Shown here one piece after another: positions 51,476 through 61,013 of a stretch of 64,000 nucleotides of DNA. The first letter of the stretch is position 1. Each line of letters begins with the position of its first letter. Made by a program: the position numbers and the translations under genes. Location of the stretch: NCBI GenBank assembly GCA_017442805.1, contig JAFRZA010000020.1, positions 62,001 to 126,000 of the forward strand, in the 5' to 3' direction. This DNA is from Erysipelotrichaceae bacterium (GTDB taxonomy: Bacteria > Bacillota_I > Bacilli_A > Erysipelotrichales > Erysipelotrichaceae). The notes under the pieces are model-generated. The model did not search any database, had not been told where the DNA came from, and saw only the letters and a list, made by a program, of their open reading frames with translations.

Positions 51476-51730
51476 ATGCCAGTATTGTCAAGGTTTTACG
51501 GAATCGTCATCCGCATGTATTTCCAGCAGGCAGAGCATAATCCGCCACATGTACATGCCCTGTATGGGGAGGACATGGCCGCTGTTGAAATAAAGACGGG
51601 AGTGATTCTGGAAGGCTATCTGCCGCCTAAGGCTTTGGCTCTGGTCCGGGAATGGATCGGTTTAAACCGTGATGATCTTCTGCAGATGTGGCAGATGCAG
51701 AAGTTCAGACCTCTTCCTCCCCTTGCTTAA
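51476..51730 (+). CDS. DUF4160 domain protein
   Basis: An 84-residue protein with the DUF4160 pattern: VLSRFYGIVIRMYFQQAEHN, PPHVHA, and W at the end of a helix (ALVREWIGLN). It has no membrane segment. It is followed after 12 nt by a DUF2442 protein; the two families are usually adjacent and I recall them being listed as toxin-antitoxin-like pairs. GGGAGAG precedes the ATG. Biochemical function is not known. Confidence 0.8.
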   Translation: MPVLSRFYGIVIRMYFQQAEHNPPHVHALYGEDMAAVEIKTGVILEGYLPPKALALVREWIGLNRDDLLQMWQMQKFRPLPPLA

Positions 51731-51742
51731 GGAGGTGATCAC

Positions 51743-52180
51743 ATGTTTCACAAGATCAAGGCTGTCAGTGCCCTGCCCGACTTACGCTTAAGCGTTCAGT
51801 TTGCTGAAGGCGTTACAAAACTCTATGATGTTAAGCCGCTGATTTCCAGATGGGAACCGTTCAGGGCTTTTACGGAAACGCCGGAGTTGTTTTATGATGT
51901 CGAGGTTGACGTGGGAGGCTACGGCATTATCTGGAACGATGATCTGGACATCTCATGCGATGAATTGTTCGAAAACGGTGAGGTAATAAAGACTCCGTTT
52001 GATGATCTGATGGCCTTTACGGATGCTACCGAGCTATGGGAGCTGAATGAAAGCACCCTCCGTAAAGCCATATCGTATGGAAAACTCATCAACGGCGTTG
52101 ATGCCTGTAAATACGGTAAACAGTGGGTAATATCCAGACAGGCCATGATCCGTGAATATGGACTGCCTGATAAGAAATAA
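51743..52180 (+). CDS. DUF2442 domain protein with C-terminal DNA-binding-like region
   Basis: A 145-residue protein. Residues 1-75 follow the DUF2442 pattern (KIKAVSALPDLRLSVQFAEG ... YDVKPLIS ... GYGIIWNDDLDISCDELFENG). Residues about 90-140 resemble a helix-turn-helix (ELNESTLRKAISYGKLINGV, then KQWVISRQAM). It is probably the antitoxin-like, DNA-binding partner of the DUF4160 protein and a candidate ligand of the palindrome at 51427-51446. AAGGAGGTGATC precedes the start. The last two codons and stop fall in the 8-bp sequence duplicated by the transposon; the reading frame is intact. Confidence 0.78.
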   Translation: MFHKIKAVSALPDLRLSVQFAEGVTKLYDVKPLISRWEPFRAFTETPELFYDVEVDVGGYGIIWNDDLDISCDELFENGEVIKTPFDDLMAFTDATELWELNESTLRKAISYGKLINGVDACKYGKQWVISRQAMIREYGLPDKK

Positions 52181-52182
52181 AA
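52175..52182. repeat. Target site duplication, left copy
   Basis: AAATAAAA directly before the left terminal repeat. It includes the TAA stop of the DUF2442 gene. The identical copy is at 59894-59901. Confidence 0.92.
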
Positions 52183-52210
52183 GGGCTAATTAAACAAATA
52201 TGGGTCTAAT
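52183..52210 (+). repeat. Left terminal inverted repeat
   Basis: 28 bp matching the reverse complement of 59866-59893 at 26 positions (differences at positions 6 and 18). Similarity stops right after position 28. Confidence 0.93.
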
Positions 52211-52211
52211 A

Positions 52212-52237
52212 AAAGGACGGTCTTAGGATCGCCCTTT
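52212..52237 (+). terminator. Hairpin just inside the left end
   Basis: AAAGG/CCTTT with an inner CGGTC/GATCG segment and loop TTAG. It may block transcription entering from the DUF2442 side. There is no T-run. Confidence 0.4.
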
Positions 52238-52350
52238 CGTTCTGCGCGGTTATGGAAACGTTAGAGCAAGATAATGAACGGCCAGCATAAGACTGTTGAG
52301 GCGCAGGGGTATTAAGATTTATAATGGAGGCAGATAAAAGGAGTTCAGAT

Positions 52351-52839
52351 ATGGGAATATTAAAAAGGGCAATCAAGTTCTTGGACCCGTTTGCTAATCA
52401 TTTTCAAAAGAATACGGCATTTCAGACAATTGTTAACGAAATAAAGGAAACGCAGCCCGCTTGCTTTTACTTTGATGCCGAACACTACCTCGAACGCGGC
52501 GGCACTGTTATTCGTAGCGTTTGCCTCGTTCATAAAGTAGATGGCTTCTTATGGGACTATCACGGAAGGGCAACGTCTGATGGCAACATAAAAGAATTCA
52601 AATTCGTCGATATGGGATATGAGCCAATATATCAGTCGGGTGATCAGCACGTTACTGCTTTCAGCAACGCATTCTTATCTGAATTGCCAAATTATAAAGC
52701 TGGAAGCTGGACACTTAGTTACAGAGCCGAATCGTCGACCAATGTATATTTTTTCGTTCGTGACGATTTGGAATTATATTGGAACCAGGACCAGAAAACA
52801 GCGGAGCAGCGGAAACGCACTCCACTTAAAAAGTGGTAA
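52351..52839 (+). CDS. Transposon passenger protein of unknown function
   Basis: A 162-residue soluble protein. I do not recognise a family. It starts with a basic amphipathic helix (ILKRAIKFLDPFANHFQK), then alternating strands rich in aromatic residues (FYFDAEHYLERGG, VDGFLWDYHG, VYFFVRDDLELYWNQD) and ends with a Lys/Arg-rich tail. No Cys-His cluster, membrane segment or signal peptide is seen. Start ATG 52351 follows AAAGGAG; an ATG at 52324 lacks a site. It is the only plus-strand gene of the element and converges on hsdR with a shared terminator. It could be an accessory to the restriction system or an independent passenger. Confidence 0.6.
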   Translation: MGILKRAIKFLDPFANHFQKNTAFQTIVNEIKETQPACFYFDAEHYLERGGTVIRSVCLVHKVDGFLWDYHGRATSDGNIKEFKFVDMGYEPIYQSGDQHVTAFSNAFLSELPNYKAGSWTLSYRAESSTNVYFFVRDDLELYWNQDQKTAEQRKRTPLKKW

Positions 52840-52859
52840 GGACCATTATCTATATAAGA

Positions 52860-52886
52860 AAAACTCCTCTGTGATAGAGGAGTTTT
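52860..52886. terminator. Bidirectional terminator between the passenger gene and hsdR
   Basis: Perfect 11-bp stem 52860-52870 with 52876-52886, flanked by A and T runs. It overlaps the hsdR stop. Confidence 0.9.
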
Positions 52887-55731
52887 ACATTATTCTTTCT
52901 AAATCCTCAATCAGTTTGTTGATCAGGATGTTGTCGAATAGCGTCGTGAAGTTTGGAAGAATCGGACTGATGAGATCTTCCCTGCGGAACAAGCCGTTCT
53001 GCGCTATGTAAGTCAGAAGAACTTTGACATACTCAATCTGAGCATCGTTCAGTCCTTTCGCTTTCTCAAGTTCGATGAACTTGTCGATGGCATCGGGGTT
53101 CATCTCAACATTCTTCCGGACAAACCGGATCGTATCTTCGTCCGTCCCGAATAGTTTGTTGTATTCCTCGACTGTCTTTGATATGCGGCTCATCTCAGCC
53201 TTGAATCTGTTGATGGCCGATTCAGTTGGCTTTACCAGGTCCTGAATCTGTCGGACAAGCGGTTCATCGTGGTGCAATTTAATATAGAACAGGGCCTTAT
53301 CCTCAAGAGTCTTGAAATCATCAACCGTTACAGTGAAATCGACATCAGCATCATCAGCATCATCAGTTGAAGAGATTTTGTCGTTGAAGTCCGTGATGAT
53401 AGGCTCCAGGACATCTCTTTCAATGTATCGCATCAGGTCTCTCAACTCGAGTCGGATCTCGTCCAGTTTGGTGACCGGGTTATCCTTCAGCAGTTCGTCT
53501 GAAGCAACAAACTCAAGCGCTTCCTTATGCTTCTGGACTTCTCTGTTTTCTGACTTATTGACCAGTAAGTAATTGGCCAATGTAAACATCGTTTTGGCTG
53601 TCAGAGCGAATGTATTGTTCTTGTGATACTTGCTGGCGGATAGTTTGTAGCACAGATAATCGAATACTCTGGCGGCTTCCAGATCAATCTCTCCGGATAC
53701 CTGAGGAGCAATATGCTCCTTGATCTCCTTAAAGTCGACCTGCTGGAAGTCAAACCATGCGGAGGACTTTGAATACTTCTCTATGAACTTGATGTTTTTG
53801 CTGACACCGATATAGTTCCGGTTGAGGCTCTTTATCTCATCTATCAAGCCATCTCTTAGGTTGGTATAGAACTCCTTTTCCTCTTTGGTAAGGGAGTCAT
53901 AGTGATGTTGCATGGCTTTGTAAAGCGCAACCTTTTCAAGGAATATCTTCTGGTAAAGGGATAGGACCTGATCGGCTGTGTCTTTCCTTCCGTCCGGATT
54001 GAGTTTAAAGAACGGGAAGACGTTACAGATGTCGAATATCAGGAAGCCCTGCTTCGAGTTATATAACTGTCTGGTAGTGTCATTGCTCTGGCGTTCAAAG
54101 TAGGCCTTTGACGGTGAAACGACTTTAATGTCTTCGCACAATCTTGTGCCTCGCCCAATCATCTGCCAGAACTTTATCTTGGAAGCCACCTTCTTAAAGA
54201 ACACAAGGTTTACTACTTCCGGAATGTCCACGCCGGTATCCATCATATCGACAGAGACAACGATTCTAATGTCCTGCTTTGCCTTGAACTCTCTCTGAAG
54301 GATTTCGTTATACTTGATTTTGTTGTCGATGATGACGCAGTAATCTACTCCGTTAACCCGATTAGGAATACACAGCTCCGGATACATCTCCCTGAAGACT
54401 TCCTGTATCAGAACTGCGTGATTATGATTTCTGGCGAAGATGATTGTTTTGCCAAGAACATCGCCGTTATTGACATACAAGCCTTCTTCCATCAGGTCCT
54501 TCAGGACTTCCCTGATGGTGTCCTTGTTGTAGATGATGGTCTCGAACTCCTTGCTGTCGATCTTTTCAGGTATCGTTCCGTCCTCGTCGGTGAACAGATC
54601 CTCGTATTCTTCTTTCTCTTCATCGCTGAGTTCTTCATAGGTCAGACCGTCCTTCAAAATGTCGGGGGTCCTGTCAAGCGCTCTGAAATAAGTCAGGTAA
54701 CCATCTTTTACAGCGCGGGTCAGTTCGTATTCATAGTTGGGAGCCTCATTATCAAGGTTGAACACTTTATATGTTGACTTGTGAATATCGTTTCTCGGAG
54801 TAGCCGTTAAGCCGATCATCAGCGCGTCAAAGTAACTGAAGATCTCCGCATACTTATTGAACAGACTTCTATGAGCCTCGTCTACGATGATCAGATCAAA
54901 ATGACCAATACCATATGGACACGTTGAAGCATCATTAATAATTGACAGCATCGACTGATATGTTGAGAAGACAATTCTAGCCTTTGACTCATCAGGTTCC
55001 CTTTTGCCTTCGATGATGGCAGACATAGGGACGTTTGAAAGGAACTTCTCAAAAGTCTCTTCCTTTGCCTGGATGACCAGATTCTTGCGGTCCGCCAGGA
55101 AAAGAATTCTCTTGACGAAGTTGTTTCTAATGAAGATATCAGATAAAGCACAAGCCGTTCTTGTCTTACCGGTTCCTGTCGCCAGGACAATTAAAGAACG
55201 GGAATGCTTTGTTGTTAAGTGCTTCAGTATCTCGTCAATTGCGTCGACCTGATAGTATCTTTCGCAGATAACCGGATTCACATGTCTATCGGGGATTGAG
55301 TTGTTTCTTCTCTGAATTAAGTATTCAAGTTCGTCCTTTTTATGGAAACCAAAGACTTCACGGGCGGGATACACTCCGTCAATGACCTTTATGGTGTAGC
55401 CGTTCGTGTAATAGATGACCGGCCTGATGCCATATTGCTTCTCTAGGCAGTCAGCATAAAGACAAGCTTGGACGCAGCCTTGTTCTTCGTTAACGATTGA
55501 CTTCTTTGCTTCAATCAAAGCGAGCGGCTTACCATCATCGCCAAATAATGTATAGTCAACAAACCCGTTGCCAGTCGGGTTCGTTGAAGTCTTGGGCATT
55601 CCTGCTACCGGTGTTTCGATACATGCACAGTTCTTCTCAACGATATACTTGTCAGATGAAACACGCCAGCCGGATCTTCGTAGAGCAGGATCAATCAACT
55701 CTATTCGAGTGTCTTTTTCGTTACGAGTCAT
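52885..55731 (-). CDS. hsdR: Type I restriction endonuclease subunit R
   Basis: A 948-residue ATP-driven translocase and nuclease that cuts unmodified DNA as part of the R2M2S complex. A PD-(D/E)XK nuclease domain is at the N-terminus (Asp59 in GFVDYTL, Glu74 and Lys76 in LIEAKKS). The superfamily 2 motor has Walker A ATGTGKT (184-190), DEAH (284-287), GLTATPR, and QMIGRGTRL (motif VI). The C-terminal ~300 residues are helical and would dock to the methylase. The start directly abuts the hsdS stop (TAA then ATG), so the genes are translationally coupled. Length and order fit an EcoEI-like R subunit. No disruption is seen. Confidence 0.93.
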   Translation of the reverse strand: MTRNEKDTRIELIDPALRRSGWRVSSDKYIVEKNCACIETPVAGMPKTSTNPTGNGFVDYTLFGDDGKPLALIEAKKSIVNEEQGCVQACLYADCLEKQYGIRPVIYYTNGYTIKVIDGVYPAREVFGFHKKDELEYLIQRRNNSIPDRHVNPVICERYYQVDAIDEILKHLTTKHSRSLIVLATGTGKTRTACALSDIFIRNNFVKRILFLADRKNLVIQAKEETFEKFLSNVPMSAIIEGKREPDESKARIVFSTYQSMLSIINDASTCPYGIGHFDLIIVDEAHRSLFNKYAEIFSYFDALMIGLTATPRNDIHKSTYKVFNLDNEAPNYEYELTRAVKDGYLTYFRALDRTPDILKDGLTYEELSDEEKEEYEDLFTDEDGTIPEKIDSKEFETIIYNKDTIREVLKDLMEEGLYVNNGDVLGKTIIFARNHNHAVLIQEVFREMYPELCIPNRVNGVDYCVIIDNKIKYNEILQREFKAKQDIRIVVSVDMMDTGVDIPEVVNLVFFKKVASKIKFWQMIGRGTRLCEDIKVVSPSKAYFERQSNDTTRQLYNSKQGFLIFDICNVFPFFKLNPDGRKDTADQVLSLYQKIFLEKVALYKAMQHHYDSLTKEEKEFYTNLRDGLIDEIKSLNRNYIGVSKNIKFIEKYSKSSAWFDFQQVDFKEIKEHIAPQVSGEIDLEAARVFDYLCYKLSASKYHKNNTFALTAKTMFTLANYLLVNKSENREVQKHKEALEFVASDELLKDNPVTKLDEIRLELRDLMRYIERDVLEPIITDFNDKISSTDDADDADVDFTVTVDDFKTLEDKALFYIKLHHDEPLVRQIQDLVKPTESAINRFKAEMSRISKTVEEYNKLFGTDEDTIRFVRKNVEMNPDAIDKFIELEKAKGLNDAQIEYVKVLLTYIAQNGLFRREDLISPILPNFTTLFDNILINKLIEDLERIM

Positions 55732-56751
55732 TTATACCTCCTCTCCGAAGTATTCGTCCATCTTCTTATCAAGCAATTCTTGGTATAGTTCAATCTTCTT
55801 CTGGCATATAGATTTTGATTTGTCGAGTTGTTCAATGAATCGATCAAATTCATCTTGCTTATCTTTTGGGGGTATTACAAACTCCAATGATCCGAGGATT
55901 TTTAAAGTTAAATATTTGGTTAATCCTCCGAGCGATTGTTCTTGTAAATACCCCAATTTATCCTCTAATTGATATTGAAACAGCCTATATGACCAGTTAT
56001 CTTTTAATCCAAGAACATATGTCCTTTGATAAGCATTAAACTTACCTTTATAGTATTTAACATCATATTTACCAGCAGCATTATTCCCAGCAAGCAATAA
56101 AGCTTCTTGGTCAAACGCATACCTGTCAATTTTGAATATCTCTTTTGCACAAGTAAAGAATGGGTATTCTCCATCTTCTACCATTGCATTAGAATCTAAC
56201 TTTCCAGTCTTTGTTTCAAATACATCATCCCACCTTTTTACAGGATATCCTTTATCAACAAAGAGCTCGTTAAATCGGGATTTGATGAGTTCGTCGAGAA
56301 ACGAGATTTTCTTATTTTGGATAGATATAAGTCTTTGTATTCTATCTAAAGCATCAATGGTCGCTATTTGCTCATCAATTGCCGGAAGTTCTTTGATTTC
56401 TAAATTGCCTATATAATTCTTATTTGTATGCTTAAGTCCAGCCCCTTTAAATCCTGCTTCAAGTAGACCCATGTTTGCTAAAAAATAGTAATATAAGTAT
56501 TTACACTTTATTTGCTCATTTGGTTGCAAAACTACACAATCTGTTGATGCCGCAAATTTTCCGTTATAGTAATGAAGTGTGGCATTTCCGCCAGTTCCCA
56601 TTATTATTCGTTCTCCGTCTATTTGATACGAGTTATATCTTTTACTTTCGTCGGAACTCGAAGTAAAAAACATATACTGTCCATTAGCAACAGCATCACC
56701 TGCTTTTATCGCTGACTTAGGAGCATATTTACATAATTCAGCTATTTTCAT
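55732..56751 (-). CDS. hsdS: Type I specificity subunit S
   Basis: A 339-residue specificity subunit that sets the bipartite DNA target. Two target-recognition domains (about 1-125 and 165-290) are each followed by a long helix (ELPAIDEQIATIDALDRIQR and VIPPKDKQDEFDRFIEQLDK) that forms the spacer. It is somewhat short, as both domains are compact. It is clearly AT-richer than hsdM and hsdR, as is often seen for S subunits that exchange domains. No second S gene or site-specific recombinase is present, so there is no sign of phase switching. It lies 20 nt after hsdM. Confidence 0.9.
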   Translation of the reverse strand: MKIAELCKYAPKSAIKAGDAVANGQYMFFTSSSDESKRYNSYQIDGERIIMGTGGNATLHYYNGKFAASTDCVVLQPNEQIKCKYLYYYFLANMGLLEAGFKGAGLKHTNKNYIGNLEIKELPAIDEQIATIDALDRIQRLISIQNKKISFLDELIKSRFNELFVDKGYPVKRWDDVFETKTGKLDSNAMVEDGEYPFFTCAKEIFKIDRYAFDQEALLLAGNNAAGKYDVKYYKGKFNAYQRTYVLGLKDNWSYRLFQYQLEDKLGYLQEQSLGGLTKYLTLKILGSLEFVIPPKDKQDEFDRFIEQLDKSKSICQKKIELYQELLDKKMDEYFGEEV

Positions 56752-56771
56752 TTAGTATTACAAACCCGATT

Positions 56772-58370
56772 CTATCGGGTTTCCTCCACATCTAAAAGCG
56801 ATTTCAACTCTTTGTGAATGGTTGCCCCCTCGGCATTTAGAGCATCTATATCAGCAAAAATCTCTGCGGTCGATCTATGGACGACCGCTTTCTTTTCGAC
56901 AATCTTGTATTTGTTAATTGTTAAGTCATAGCCGTTTTCAATGATCAACTGCTTTGGAACAAAGAACCACTTGTTTTTCCTTTGCTCGGTCTTTTCTTCC
57001 TCGCTTAATTCATTGTAATGACTTAGTTCTTGAGCGAGTTTGTTGAATGTCGTAACAACATCGGGAATGTCAGAACCTTCACACTCTGTTCGTTTAGCAT
57101 CCAAAGTGAACCCGTCGTTAGTCATATCATAGAACCAAACGTTGTCCGTCCCGCCATTATCGGTTCTCTCGAAAACCAAGAATGATGTCTTAACACCAGC
57201 GCCTTTTGAAGCAGACCCCTTCTTTGCCGGTGCTGCGAAAAGGCCCTGAGGCATCGATATGACACCGACTAATTTCTGCTTGTCGACCAATTCTCTTCTG
57301 AGGTTAATGTGTGCGTTGTCACTACCGAACAGGACACCGTCCGGAACGATAGACATACCTCTTCCACCAATCTTCATTAATTTCAGCATTAAAGCCACGA
57401 ATAGCAGTTCGGTTTTCTTTGTCTTTGTAATTGCCAACAGAGCATTATTCGTTGCCTCTTCAACAAGACTGCCAGCAAACGGAGGATTTTGGAGGACTAA
57501 GTCAAACTTGCCAAGTAAATCTTTAGCGTTATCGTGTTCCAATAATGAATCCATCGTTATAACGGGGTCGTTGATGTTATGGAGGATACAGTTCATATAA
57601 CCAATCCTGGCCATCGTTGTATCATTGTCGCAGCCGTAGAACATTTTCGAGTTAAAGGTTTCCTTGTTCTCGGCATTATATAATTCATCTTTCTGATGTT
57701 CCTGGATATACTTGGCAGCCTCAACGATGAAGCCGGCGGTTCCCATTGCCGGGTCGATAATCTTTTCGCCAAGTTTCGGCTTCATCATTTCAACGGCCAT
57801 ATCAATGATGTGCCGCGGTGTTCTGAACTGTCCGGAGATGCCGGATCCGCAAATATACTCATAAACATCACCCATCAGGTCGGTGTTTACAAAGTTGAAT
57901 TCATCATCTGACAGTTTATCCACTACTGATGCCAGTAATCTGTCCTTGTTTGTAAAGCCGTAAGCATACTCGCTGGAATACTCTGCGAACTTGCCAACTG
58001 CCTTATTGTCTTTATCCATAATGAAAGGAACCACGTAATCTCTGATTCTCTTAGCAAGGTTTGAAGGACTAAGATTCTTAAAGTTCTTCCACCGGAGATC
58101 GCTGTATGGAATAGTGAACTTCAATCTTTTTTCGCCTTCGCCTGTTTCATAATTCTTATACTCGCCATCCTTGAAAGTCAGATCGTTCTGATTTGGTTTA
58201 ACGCCAATTAAAGAGGCTCTGGCTTCCAGGTCATTCTGCTTATCATCAAGCATTTTGATGAACATAAGCATCGTCAGCTGGTTAACAACATCAGATGCCT
58301 GCGCTTTATTCTCGTTATAGAAGTCCTGCCGGATGGCATCGACTTTGCTCTTTAAACTGCCAGTAATCAT
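56772..58370 (-). CDS. hsdM: Type I DNA methyltransferase subunit M
   Basis: A 532-residue N6-adenine methylase. The N-terminal helical domain (about 1-150) is followed by the catalytic domain with SAM motif DPAMGTAGF (206-214) and the catalytic NPPF (295-298). Residues 160-186 (VNTDLMGDVYEYI ... QFRTPRHI) are typical HsdM. It modifies host DNA at the sites read by HsdS. Start 58370 follows AAAGGAGCG. A TATAAT on the minus strand at 58448-58453 may give it a promoter separate from the transposase; no good -35 is visible. Confidence 0.95.
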   Translation of the reverse strand: MITGSLKSKVDAIRQDFYNENKAQASDVVNQLTMLMFIKMLDDKQNDLEARASLIGVKPNQNDLTFKDGEYKNYETGEGEKRLKFTIPYSDLRWKNFKNLSPSNLAKRIRDYVVPFIMDKDNKAVGKFAEYSSEYAYGFTNKDRLLASVVDKLSDDEFNFVNTDLMGDVYEYICGSGISGQFRTPRHIIDMAVEMMKPKLGEKIIDPAMGTAGFIVEAAKYIQEHQKDELYNAENKETFNSKMFYGCDNDTTMARIGYMNCILHNINDPVITMDSLLEHDNAKDLLGKFDLVLQNPPFAGSLVEEATNNALLAITKTKKTELLFVALMLKLMKIGGRGMSIVPDGVLFGSDNAHINLRRELVDKQKLVGVISMPQGLFAAPAKKGSASKGAGVKTSFLVFERTDNGGTDNVWFYDMTNDGFTLDAKRTECEGSDIPDVVTTFNKLAQELSHYNELSEEEKTEQRKNKWFFVPKQLIIENGYDLTINKYKIVEKKAVVHRSTAEIFADIDALNAEGATIHKELKSLLDVEETR

Positions 58371-58466
58371 ATAGTTACGCTCCTTTTATCAGTGTATTCT
58401 ACTCATCAGTTTTCCTTCTAATTGTCACTAAATGGCACTTTAATACTATTATACCCCAATCTGAAG

Positions 58467-59828
58467 TTAATGGTTTTTGTAGTCTTCCTCAATGATCCTC
58501 TCGACATCCGGCATTGTAGCCAGCCTTTTACACTTATGAAGTTTCGTTTCTCCTTGACGCCAGTCCAGATAAGTTCTGACTAAGTCATTCACCCTCTTCA
58601 CGCCCAGCGACTTGAAGTATTCGATGGGCTTGATGGTATCCAAATCGATTGTATGAGTCCGGATCTGGTCTCTGACATCCTTTTCCTTGTTCCTGACGAA
58701 CCTCTTGGACTTGTGTGGCAGGTCAAGGACGGACTGCGACTTTATCTGCCTTAAGTTCAGTGCCGAGTATTGTTCTATCTCGTCAAGTATCTCGTAAGCA
58801 TCATTTAACGTTGATGGCGGGTAGCCGTGTTCGCTCTGCCAGTTATGAACATATACGAATGCGCCTACATATTCCTGTAGGTATTTTGACGATACGCCCT
58901 TAGTGTCATTGACGAACAATTCCTCAAGCCGCTGATGGAATGAGTTGACGAATTCGATGCCGAGATTAAACTGCTTGCGCAGGGCAGAGAATTCCTCAAA
59001 GGTCGCACCTTCAACATAAGGTCCTTCCCTATTATCCGACATTTCCTTCATTATCCGAAGGTTGCGTCGCTTTTGTTCCTCGGTCTGAGGGTTTTCTTTA
59101 TAGCCTTTCTGCTGGCGTTTCTTACGGTAACCTGATGGTTCAATGTAATGCGGATAATTATGTTTGTCGCACCAGTCCTTATATATCTCATAGGCGTCAG
59201 AACAGATGAACTTAACGTCCTTCAGATAAGGCTCTAAGTGCTTTAATGCTTTGACGTCGCAGGCACCTAATGAAACGCATTTGGCCCAGTAATGACCAGC
59301 GTGGTCGGCAGCGCTCAAGACGCAGATGAACTCTGGCCCATAGATGCCGCTTTCGCTGCTTTCCTGATGATAACGGGGACGGCGCGATGATCTGCGGTCA
59401 GCAAAGGAAATCAGTTTATCCGACCCTTTCTGAACCTCTCTGAAGTATTTCTCGTCTATCTCTATTACGCCCTCGAGCGTCTTAAATGACATCTCACTCA
59501 GGGCGTGGAGTATCTTATGACGCACCAGCCAGAGCTGCTGGCGATGGTCGTTAACGAAACGATGTGCCCCTACCTGGCTTATGTGCCCATAAATGTTTTC
59601 ACTTATATAGAACAGCGAGTTCCAGTTAAGGGTGTAGTGGATGACCTTGGCGAGGGTGTCGCGGTCTAACCCAGTGCTACGGGTGAAACTGTCCAAAGTA
59701 ATACTGAAAGACTTGCCGCATTCAAGGCAGCAATATCTTTGTCCTCCGGTTGTTGTTAAGCCCTTCTTCTTGACTGCCGACGACGAACATCTCGGACAGC
59801 AGACACCGTGGGCAGGCAGTTTCTTCAT
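58467..59828 (-). CDS. ISXO2/IS1595-type DDE transposase
   Basis: A 453-residue transposase, longer than the ~300 residues usual for the family. A zinc ribbon (CPRC near 11-14 and CCLEC near 33-37) is followed by a helix-turn-helix region (about 50-105). The catalytic domain starts with Asp125 in VIEIDEKYF, then Asp211 in ICSDAYEIY, and the block VNSFHQRLEELF ... KGVSSKYLQEYVGAF, whose Asn295 and Lys310 fit a DDNK arrangement. About 120 extra C-terminal residues follow. The frame is intact. The ATG is only 7 nt from a TAAAAT box and has no ribosome binding site, which suggests a leaderless message. It starts 38 bp inside the right terminal repeat. Confidence 0.9.
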   Translation of the reverse strand: MKKLPAHGVCCPRCSSSAVKKKGLTTTGGQRYCCLECGKSFSITLDSFTRSTGLDRDTLAKVIHYTLNWNSLFYISENIYGHISQVGAHRFVNDHRQQLWLVRHKILHALSEMSFKTLEGVIEIDEKYFREVQKGSDKLISFADRRSSRRPRYHQESSESGIYGPEFICVLSAADHAGHYWAKCVSLGACDVKALKHLEPYLKDVKFICSDAYEIYKDWCDKHNYPHYIEPSGYRKKRQQKGYKENPQTEEQKRRNLRIMKEMSDNREGPYVEGATFEEFSALRKQFNLGIEFVNSFHQRLEELFVNDTKGVSSKYLQEYVGAFVYVHNWQSEHGYPPSTLNDAYEILDEIEQYSALNLRQIKSQSVLDLPHKSKRFVRNKEKDVRDQIRTHTIDLDTIKPIEYFKSLGVKRVNDLVRTYLDWRQGETKLHKCKRLATMPDVERIIEEDYKNH

Positions 59829-59865
59829 ACATATATTTTAACACATAAAGAAAAGCGGGTCGAGC

Positions 59866-59893
59866 ATTAGACCCACATTTGTTTAATAAGCCC
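59866..59893 (-). repeat. Right terminal inverted repeat
   Basis: 28 bp, the inverted partner of 52183-52210 (26/28). It begins GGG at the outer end. Confidence 0.93.
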
Positions 59894-59901
59894 AAATAAA
59901 A
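59894..59901. repeat. Target site duplication, right copy
   Basis: AAATAAAA, identical to 52175-52182, directly outside the right terminal repeat. Confidence 0.92.
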
Positions 59902-59969: not shown

Positions 59970-61013
59970 TTAAACTTTTCTTCGATATCTGGCATCCCTG
60001 AAGGAACCTGATTTTTCAATCATTTCTTCCTTCAGTAACTTTGCCACTTGCTTTTCTACGGTTGTTTCACTGATGTCGGGGAGTCTTTCCATAATATCCT
60101 TTTTTGAAAGAGGAACAATGGAGTTCATTAACAGTTTGGTTACTCTTTCTGACTTCTTTTCTTTTCGAATCGTAAACTCAAAGAATGATTCATCCATCTG
60201 CCGGTAACAGCGGTACAGTATCTGCATGCTGAAGAGAATAAAGGGAGTGTAATCGTTGACACCTTCATGCCAGCCAGCTGAGGAAGCGGCCAGAGCATCG
60301 TAGTAATTCTGGCGGAATTCATCGATCTGTTTTTCCAGGGAAATGAATCTGACAATATCATAACCGCCTGTCAGCAGCAACAGCACGTTAAGCAGCCGGG
60401 AAACTCTGCCATTACCGTCTTTGAATGGGTGTATGCAGAGAAAGTCAACGACGAAACAGGGAATCAGCAATATGTCCGGTATTTCCTCATCCTGCCTGGC
60501 ATCGTAAAATGCTAACAGGAGCTGCTCCATGTTTTTTTCTACTTCTGAAGCTTTTACAGGCGTGAACCTGACGCGTCGATTACCGTCAGCATCATATTCC
60601 ATTATGAAGTTATCATTTTCTTTATACATCCCGGCCTGGTCAGGATCAGACTGCTGCTCGATAAGCCGATGGAATCCTCTGATCAGATCTTCATTGAGAT
60701 TCAGGGAAGAGGTCTTTTCAAAAATCAGCCTGAGCGCGTCCCGGTATCCCGCTATTTCCATTTCATCATGACTGACGGGTTGATGACCGGCGACAATGTC
60801 CTGCAGACGCTGCTGTGTCGTAACGATGCCCTCTATGGCATTGCTGCAGCGGACCGAATCGATGATCGCTTTCTTCTGAAACCGGGCATAGACCTCTCCG
60901 TATTGCTGCATGCGCACTTCACTGCGGGTTTTCAGGTCGGCGATGATCTGCGCCAGCCTCAGCATTTCGCTTAATGTACTTCCCTTAAGGAATGAGTAGT
61001 CGTATTTCCGCAT
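59970..61013 (-). CDS. Fic family protein, class II, with winged-helix C-terminus
   Basis: A 347-residue Fic protein, a family that mostly transfers AMP from ATP to target proteins. The catalytic motif HPFKDGNGRVSR (195-206) is complete. The inhibitory-helix motif Ser57-x3-Glu61-Gly62 (SNAIEG) lies N-terminal, making this a class II, self-inhibited Fic. The last ~60 residues (SKKDIMERLPDISETTVEKQ) look like a winged helix-turn-helix. The gene is monocistronic; its promoter is embedded in a four-half-site operator array, pointing to autoregulation. Target protein is unknown. Confidence 0.9.
   Translation of the reverse strand: MRKYDYSFLKGSTLSEMLRLAQIIADLKTRSEVRMQQYGEVYARFQKKAIIDSVRCSNAIEGIVTTQQRLQDIVAGHQPVSHDEMEIAGYRDALRLIFEKTSSLNLNEDLIRGFHRLIEQQSDPDQAGMYKENDNFIMEYDADGNRRVRFTPVKASEVEKNMEQLLLAFYDARQDEEIPDILLIPCFVVDFLCIHPFKDGNGRVSRLLNVLLLLTGGYDIVRFISLEKQIDEFRQNYYDALAASSAGWHEGVNDYTPFILFSMQILYRCYRQMDESFFEFTIRKEKKSERVTKLLMNSIVPLSKKDIMERLPDISETTVEKQVAKLLKEEMIEKSGSFRDARYRRKV

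Follow-up and report, generated by a model that had tools for sequence, protein, structure and literature searches.

Anatomy of the element

In the window, that is, the whole 64,000-nucleotide stretch analysed here from contig JAFRZA010000020.1 of a gut-type Erysipelotrichaceae bacterium, four intact reading frames follow one another on the minus strand in the order transposase, hsdM, hsdS and hsdR, within a unit of 7,711 bp (about 7.7 kb; 52183-59893) that has the form of a transposon. Its borders are a left terminal inverted repeat (TIR) of 28 bp (GGGCTAATTAAACAAATATGGGTCTAAT; 52183-52210, plus strand) and a right one of equal length (GGGCTTATTAAACAAATGTGGGTCTAAT as reverse complement; 59866-59893, minus strand), matching at 26 of 28 positions, and directly outside both ends stands an exact 8-bp target duplication, AAATAAAA, at 52175-52182 and 59894-59901. 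The duplication was recovered both by reading the sequence and by a scan that scores inverted ends and target duplication jointly; the ends of the element score 28, against a maximum of 18 among 60 dinucleotide-preserving shuffles drawn from the same two flanks. Short TIRs with an 8-bp target duplication are features of IS1595 insertion sequences (IS), and the element has both. No full IS with its own two ends stands at each border, as a composite transposon would have; the element has a single transposase and a single pair of ends. GC content is 0.428 within the element and 0.511 in the 4 kb on either side, and further copies of the ends were absent at up to 8 mismatches from the rest of the window and from the other stretches compared at that stage. 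A sequence-only reading had claimed these repeats and this duplication, together with an intact transposase near one end and intact hsdM, hsdS and hsdR between them, and sequence reading and shuffle test have borne it out.

The gene adjoining the right end (58467-59828, minus strand) encodes a transposase of 453 aa, an IS1595-like DD(N) enzyme with an N-terminal zinc ribbon. Against the NCBIfam IS1595 model NF033547 it reaches 73.8 bits (1.7e-20), slightly short of the cut-off of 75, which is exceeded by its relatives at the loci L007 (90.1 bits) and L008 (83.1 bits), and against the IS1/IS1595 zinc-ribbon model NF050000 it scores 39 bits, over a cut-off of 28. The zinc-ribbon residues C11, C14, C34 and C37 are invariant in the alignment, and D125, D211 and N295, conserved in the clade of relatives described below, align with the presumed catalytic positions. 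An AlphaFold model of the protein (mean pLDDT 74.6) finds its nearest fold in the Protein Data Bank (PDB) in the transposase of ISCth4 (E 6e-5), the closest solved DDE transposase fold, although ISCth4 belongs to another family, IS256, and the matched stretch shows no more than 14% sequence identity. The family of the transposase, the structure of the ends and the length of the duplication are all consistent with an IS1595-like element, as had been suggested. The label 'ISXO2-type' given earlier was too specific, since a search for Pfam PF12762 (DDE_Tnp_IS1595) through the entire genome, the window included, gave nothing at E<=0.001, and this family is not among the Pfam matches of the transposase itself.

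In the cargo, the methyltransferase gene hsdM (56772-58370, minus strand) encodes an N6-adenine methyltransferase subunit of 532 aa (PADLOC MTase_I 2.7e-124; Pfam N6_Mtase 3e-50, with HsdM_N) in which the motifs DPAMGTAGF and NPPF are present. It is followed by hsdS (55732-56751, minus strand), a specificity subunit of 339 aa with two Methylase_S stretches (Pfam PF01420 1.6e-27; PADLOC Specificity_I 4e-44), and by hsdR (52885-55731, minus strand), a restriction and translocase subunit of 948 aa (PADLOC REase_I 4e-122; ResIII and HSDR_N) bearing the nuclease motif D-EAK, a Walker A motif GTGKT, a DEAH box and motif VI, GRGTRL. HsdR resembles the EcoAI/FtnUII type (NCBIfam 1.4e-73, under that model's equivalog cut-off) and matches the solved type I R subunit PDB 3h1t at 8e-34. 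With the three genes adjacent and intact and the catalytic motifs in place, the passenger is by its gene content a complete type I restriction-modification (R-M) system; HsdM and HsdS would methylate, and HsdR would be added to them for restriction. The system is predicted to be active and may be advantageous through the restriction of phage or plasmid DNA.

A clade of transposases and its cargo

Relatives were sought with the transposase as the only query, and the searches were therefore blind to R-M genes. In a survey of 273 genomes of the same family the transposase was matched only in three other genomes and in a fossil within the window's own genome, and all four places adjoin R-M genes: type III at L007 and L009, type I at L008 and at the fossil (L006/L099). 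Wider searches of 1,990/2,000 genomes and of the genome_contigs collection added L045, L046, L093, L094 and L127-L131, plus the shorter proteins of L049 and L050; the single window protein as query returned no close transposase relatives from genome_contigs, and an alignment-based search then found them. Plasmid and phage collections yielded ordinary IS1595-type matches only (22-33% identity), and viral contigs weak or ordinary matches only. In the resulting tree the long IS1595-like transposases form one clade, with support of 100/100, apart from the ordinary IS1595 transposases.

Both ends and a direct duplication were found at eight loci, the window included, and in the seven further members, whose target duplications measure 8-9 bp, the cargo is a complete R-M system in three and unrelated genes in four. 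The three are the elements of L007 (2493-9121, duplication GAGCAAATA; type III), L008 (1353-10705, AGAAAAGAA; type I) and L045 (9771-13527, AATTTGCT; type II, of the IceA/NlaIII family). The cargo of L045 pairs an N6/N4 methyltransferase with a protein of the ICEA family PF05315 (1.8e-35), to which the CATG-cutting enzymes IceA1 and NlaIII belong. The other four enclose a proline-rich lipoprotein-like protein (L046; 9657-14029, AATTACTA), a leucine-rich protein beside a transposase with a stop (L093; 5428-9126, TTTTTTAG), a membrane-type protein (L127; 7934-11097, TTTTTTCA) and a protein of 120 aa (L128; 8603-11655, CCTAAAAT). Elements of the clade reach 9.35 kb. Five of the eight loci were compared with shuffles, and their scores of 24-28 lie above every shuffle (maxima 16-19); L127 and L128 score 24 and 28 without shuffle comparison, and the score of L093, only 19, is weak. 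The proposal that an R-M system could ride as cargo inside an IS1595-like element with a single transposase is borne out by these three relatives of like anatomy.

Several loci were considered and left uncounted as bounded elements. No ends were found for the truncated transposase adjoining type III R-M genes at L009 or for the fossil transposase at L099; at L094 a distance of about 4.5 kb, occupied by other genes, separates the type I genes from the transposase, and there are no significant ends; and the transposase of L056, tried as another R-M-linked element, apparently belongs to another family.

Direct evidence of cargo exchange between kept ends comes from the pair L045 and L046. Their transposases are 66% identical, and DNA similarity is confined to the transposase gene and to the two borders, 32 bp at the left and 80 bp at the right, while the cargo between, a type II R-M system in one and a lipoprotein-like gene in the other, is unrelated. 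At L008 and L009, where the transposases are 46% identical over their overlap, the adjoining systems are of type I and type III, respectively. Elements with R-M cargo lie dispersed over the tree, and R-M systems have therefore probably been captured repeatedly. An exact empty site is available for the L046 element, in that the two flanks, once joined, align without interruption to the congener G1359 (L113), which has one copy of AATTACTA there. For L007 there is an element-free locus in a congener, G236 (L115), where about 180 bp separates the two genes that flank the element at L007, the intergenic DNA being too diverged for the junction to be placed.

Whether R-M genes accompany these transposases beyond expectation can be judged in numbers. 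They stand next to the transposase at 6 of 16 places in the wider clade, whereas none of the 14 places with an ordinary IS1595 transposase has them (Fisher p 0.013). Setting aside the window copy, chosen for its R-M, leaves 5 of 15 places in the clade, still against 0 of 14, and a hand-calculated p of about 0.025; around the ordinary places (89 neighbour genes), no R-M family is among the 25 most frequent PADLOC matches listed. Given the small sample, a threshold set post hoc and R-M queries drawn from the clade itself, this enrichment is only suggestive. The case of the four bounded elements, each containing a complete R-M system, is independent of the statistic.

Surroundings and side observations

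The left end lies in intergenic DNA immediately past the stop codon that closes a DUF2442 gene, and no gene is visibly disrupted by the insertion. The upstream neighbour of the DUF2442 gene shows a likeness to DhiT toxins (86.3 bits against a cut-off of 100), and the two genes, DUF4160 (DhiT-like) and DUF2442/HTH (51476-52180), with the transposon directly past the second stop codon, are probably a toxin-antitoxin pair. On the other side, a gene for a Fic/DOC family protein (59970-61013) adjoins the right end. Within the element, between the left end and hsdR, an open reading frame of 171 aa (52324-52839, plus strand) has no match in Pfam, NCBIfam or PADLOC.

Elsewhere in the same genome, on contig C42 at about 12.8-20.5 kb, a second type I R-M system (L099 5147-11536), composed of hsdR (1040 aa), hsdM (557 aa), a PUA-like protein (144 aa) and hsdS (378 aa), has a frameshifted fossil of a clade transposase (L099 3775-4640) immediately upstream of it. 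In Absicoccus porci (L008 10865-13886) cas1, cas2 and csn2-like genes and a CRISPR-like repeat array adjoin the R-M transposon. At L093 (5680-8871) a transposase with an in-frame TGA adjoins a leucine-rich-repeat and DUF3888 protein, between TTATATACTG ends and the TTTTTTAG duplication. A C-terminal extension, SAP/Rho-N-like in appearance when judged by eye, is common to the long transposases of the clade (for example at L007 residues ~465-520), and at L026 (9161-11413; G464) an IS1595-like transposase of 750 aa, with no R-M nearby, has by eye an apparent C-terminal DnaQ-like exonuclease domain in the same reading frame.

Weighing the explanations

The preferred reading, to which we assign a probability of about 0.88, is that 52183-59893 is one transposon with a type I R-M passenger and comes from a clade whose members exchange cargo between kept ends. 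It draws on the ends, duplications and gene content, on the clade, on one cargo exchange and on one exact empty site, the last belonging to a relative with other cargo. The IS1595-like transposase adjoining the right end would recognise both 28-bp ends and would have carried the whole unit, transposase together with hsdM, hsdS and hsdR, into the intergenic space past the DUF2442 gene, where a staggered cut of 8 bp in the target would give rise to the AAATAAAA duplication. The reading takes this transposase to work on both ends and to have moved this very element, which may be moving still. No observation points to hsd genes standing at this site without the repeats, or to repeats that belong to a wider conserved region. 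In the clade at large, elements would keep the transposase and both ends while exchanging the content between them, and complete type I, type II and type III R-M systems would have been captured in this way again and again.

The ends and duplication might instead be chance matches around an ordinary chromosomal hsd operon, and A+T-rich intergenic DNA does easily yield short A+T-rich duplications. The excess of the joint score over every shuffle, a match of 26/28 over 28 bp that directly bounds a transposase, and the recurrence of this anatomy in relatives speak against chance, and by these results that explanation is already refuted. R-M systems often lie near IS elements, and a pre-existing chromosomal hsd operon could have acquired IS copies on both sides, one of which has since lost its transposase, to leave a composite-like or accidental frame; the single transposase gene and a far end marked by a TIR without transposase remnant fit such a history. 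However, two separate IS insertions would give differing duplications beside each IS, whereas the exact duplication here lies outside the outermost ends, and the anatomy of one transposase and two ends recurs in three relatives with other R-M systems; with a duplication common to both outer ends, a pair of flanking IS copies is highly improbable. Somewhat less remote, yet still unlikely, is an integrative mobilizable element (IME) moved by a helper conjugative element acting via an origin of transfer. The passenger-carrying IS1595-family elements MTnSag1 and tISCpe8 have been described as IMEs (PMC5704250), and the patchy distribution needs spread between species, but no relaxase or mobilisation gene was recognised in the R-M-bearing elements, for which no search for an origin of transfer was made.

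The alternative that deserves the most serious attention, and that we regard as a tenable though lesser possibility, is that the unit moved once as a transposon and is now immobile, the host keeping only a defence locus. It gains from the single intact copy of the transposon in its own genome, from a diverged transposase with E302, after N295, where most relatives have K, and from the fossil state of the clade transposase beside the genome's second type I R-M system. The single copy, E302 and the divergence of the transposase, whose branch of 1.75 sets it furthest apart in the tree, also weigh against the preferred reading. So do the ends (GGGCT...), which are unlike the TTATA-type ends that several relatives have, and the failure to find an empty site for the window copy, its flank being absent from all six genus relatives compared. 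Against immobility stand the intact transposase reading frame, the 26/28 ends, the exact duplication and four genes without decay. Moreover, the case for E302 as an inactivating change is weakened by the occurrence of E at this position in two ordinary IS1595 proteins (L027 and L034).

Relation to known systems and implications

IS1595 elements with passengers are already known, and so is the carriage of R-M systems by transposons of other kinds. Casposons depend on a Cas1 integrase and differ in size and hosts from the elements described here, and Tn7-like elements move by means of several proteins (TnsABC plus targeting proteins), whereas the window element has one transposase gene and little beyond it and one R-M system. 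The likeness lies in the cargo: casposons are transposons with nuclease or methylase cargo that may carry methyltransferase or restriction endonuclease genes (PMC4046053), and Tn7-like transposons carry defence cargo of which R-M modules are the commonest (PMC8649781). For IS that carry passengers, 'transporter IS' is an accepted term (PMC3129680). Within the IS1595 family, MTnSag1 (tISSag10) and tISCpe8, the latter a lincomycin-resistance element, are treated as mobilizable and share with the window element an IS1595-family transposase, short TIRs and a passenger inside the ends (PMC5704250), in keeping with the earlier statement that elements of this family sometimes carry passenger genes. 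They differ in that they carry a lincomycin-resistance gene and not a multi-gene R-M system. An MTnSag1-type transposase (347 aa) adjoining lnu(C) at L073 falls among the ordinary IS1595 proteins, outside the clade.

Similar in shape are the putative mobile R-M units reportedly proposed by Furuta, Abe and Kobayashi in 2010 (NAR 38:2428), with inverted repeats, short target duplications and linked transposase homologues. We know of no clade-level association of R-M systems with a single transposase lineage, and the literature searched, to which Siguier 2009 (ISfinder) and Furuta 2010 were external, held no report of IS1595 elements with R-M cargo. Nor did that literature describe a single clade that has repeatedly taken up complete R-M systems of three types.

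For its carrier, the R-M system may protect against phage or may help to keep the element in the population. Self-stabilisation by killing after loss, suggested earlier, is not supported and is unlikely for this system, as type I systems are usually without post-segregational killing owing to restriction alleviation. The broader proposal, that an unnamed and compact single-transposase lineage in Erysipelotrichaceae, Oscillospiraceae and Lachnospiraceae carries complete type I, type II and type III R-M systems interchangeably, as their vehicle, is one for which we would give even odds.

The patchy distribution of R-M systems, and whether R-M systems are themselves mobile units, are long-standing questions. 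If the proposal is true, R-M systems travel as self-sufficient transposons and not only on islands, plasmids and large Tn7-like elements. With transposase, ends, target duplication and a complete R-M system displayed in one small unit, R-M mobility becomes directly testable, and the transposase clade with its ends may offer a handle for finding further mobile defence genes.

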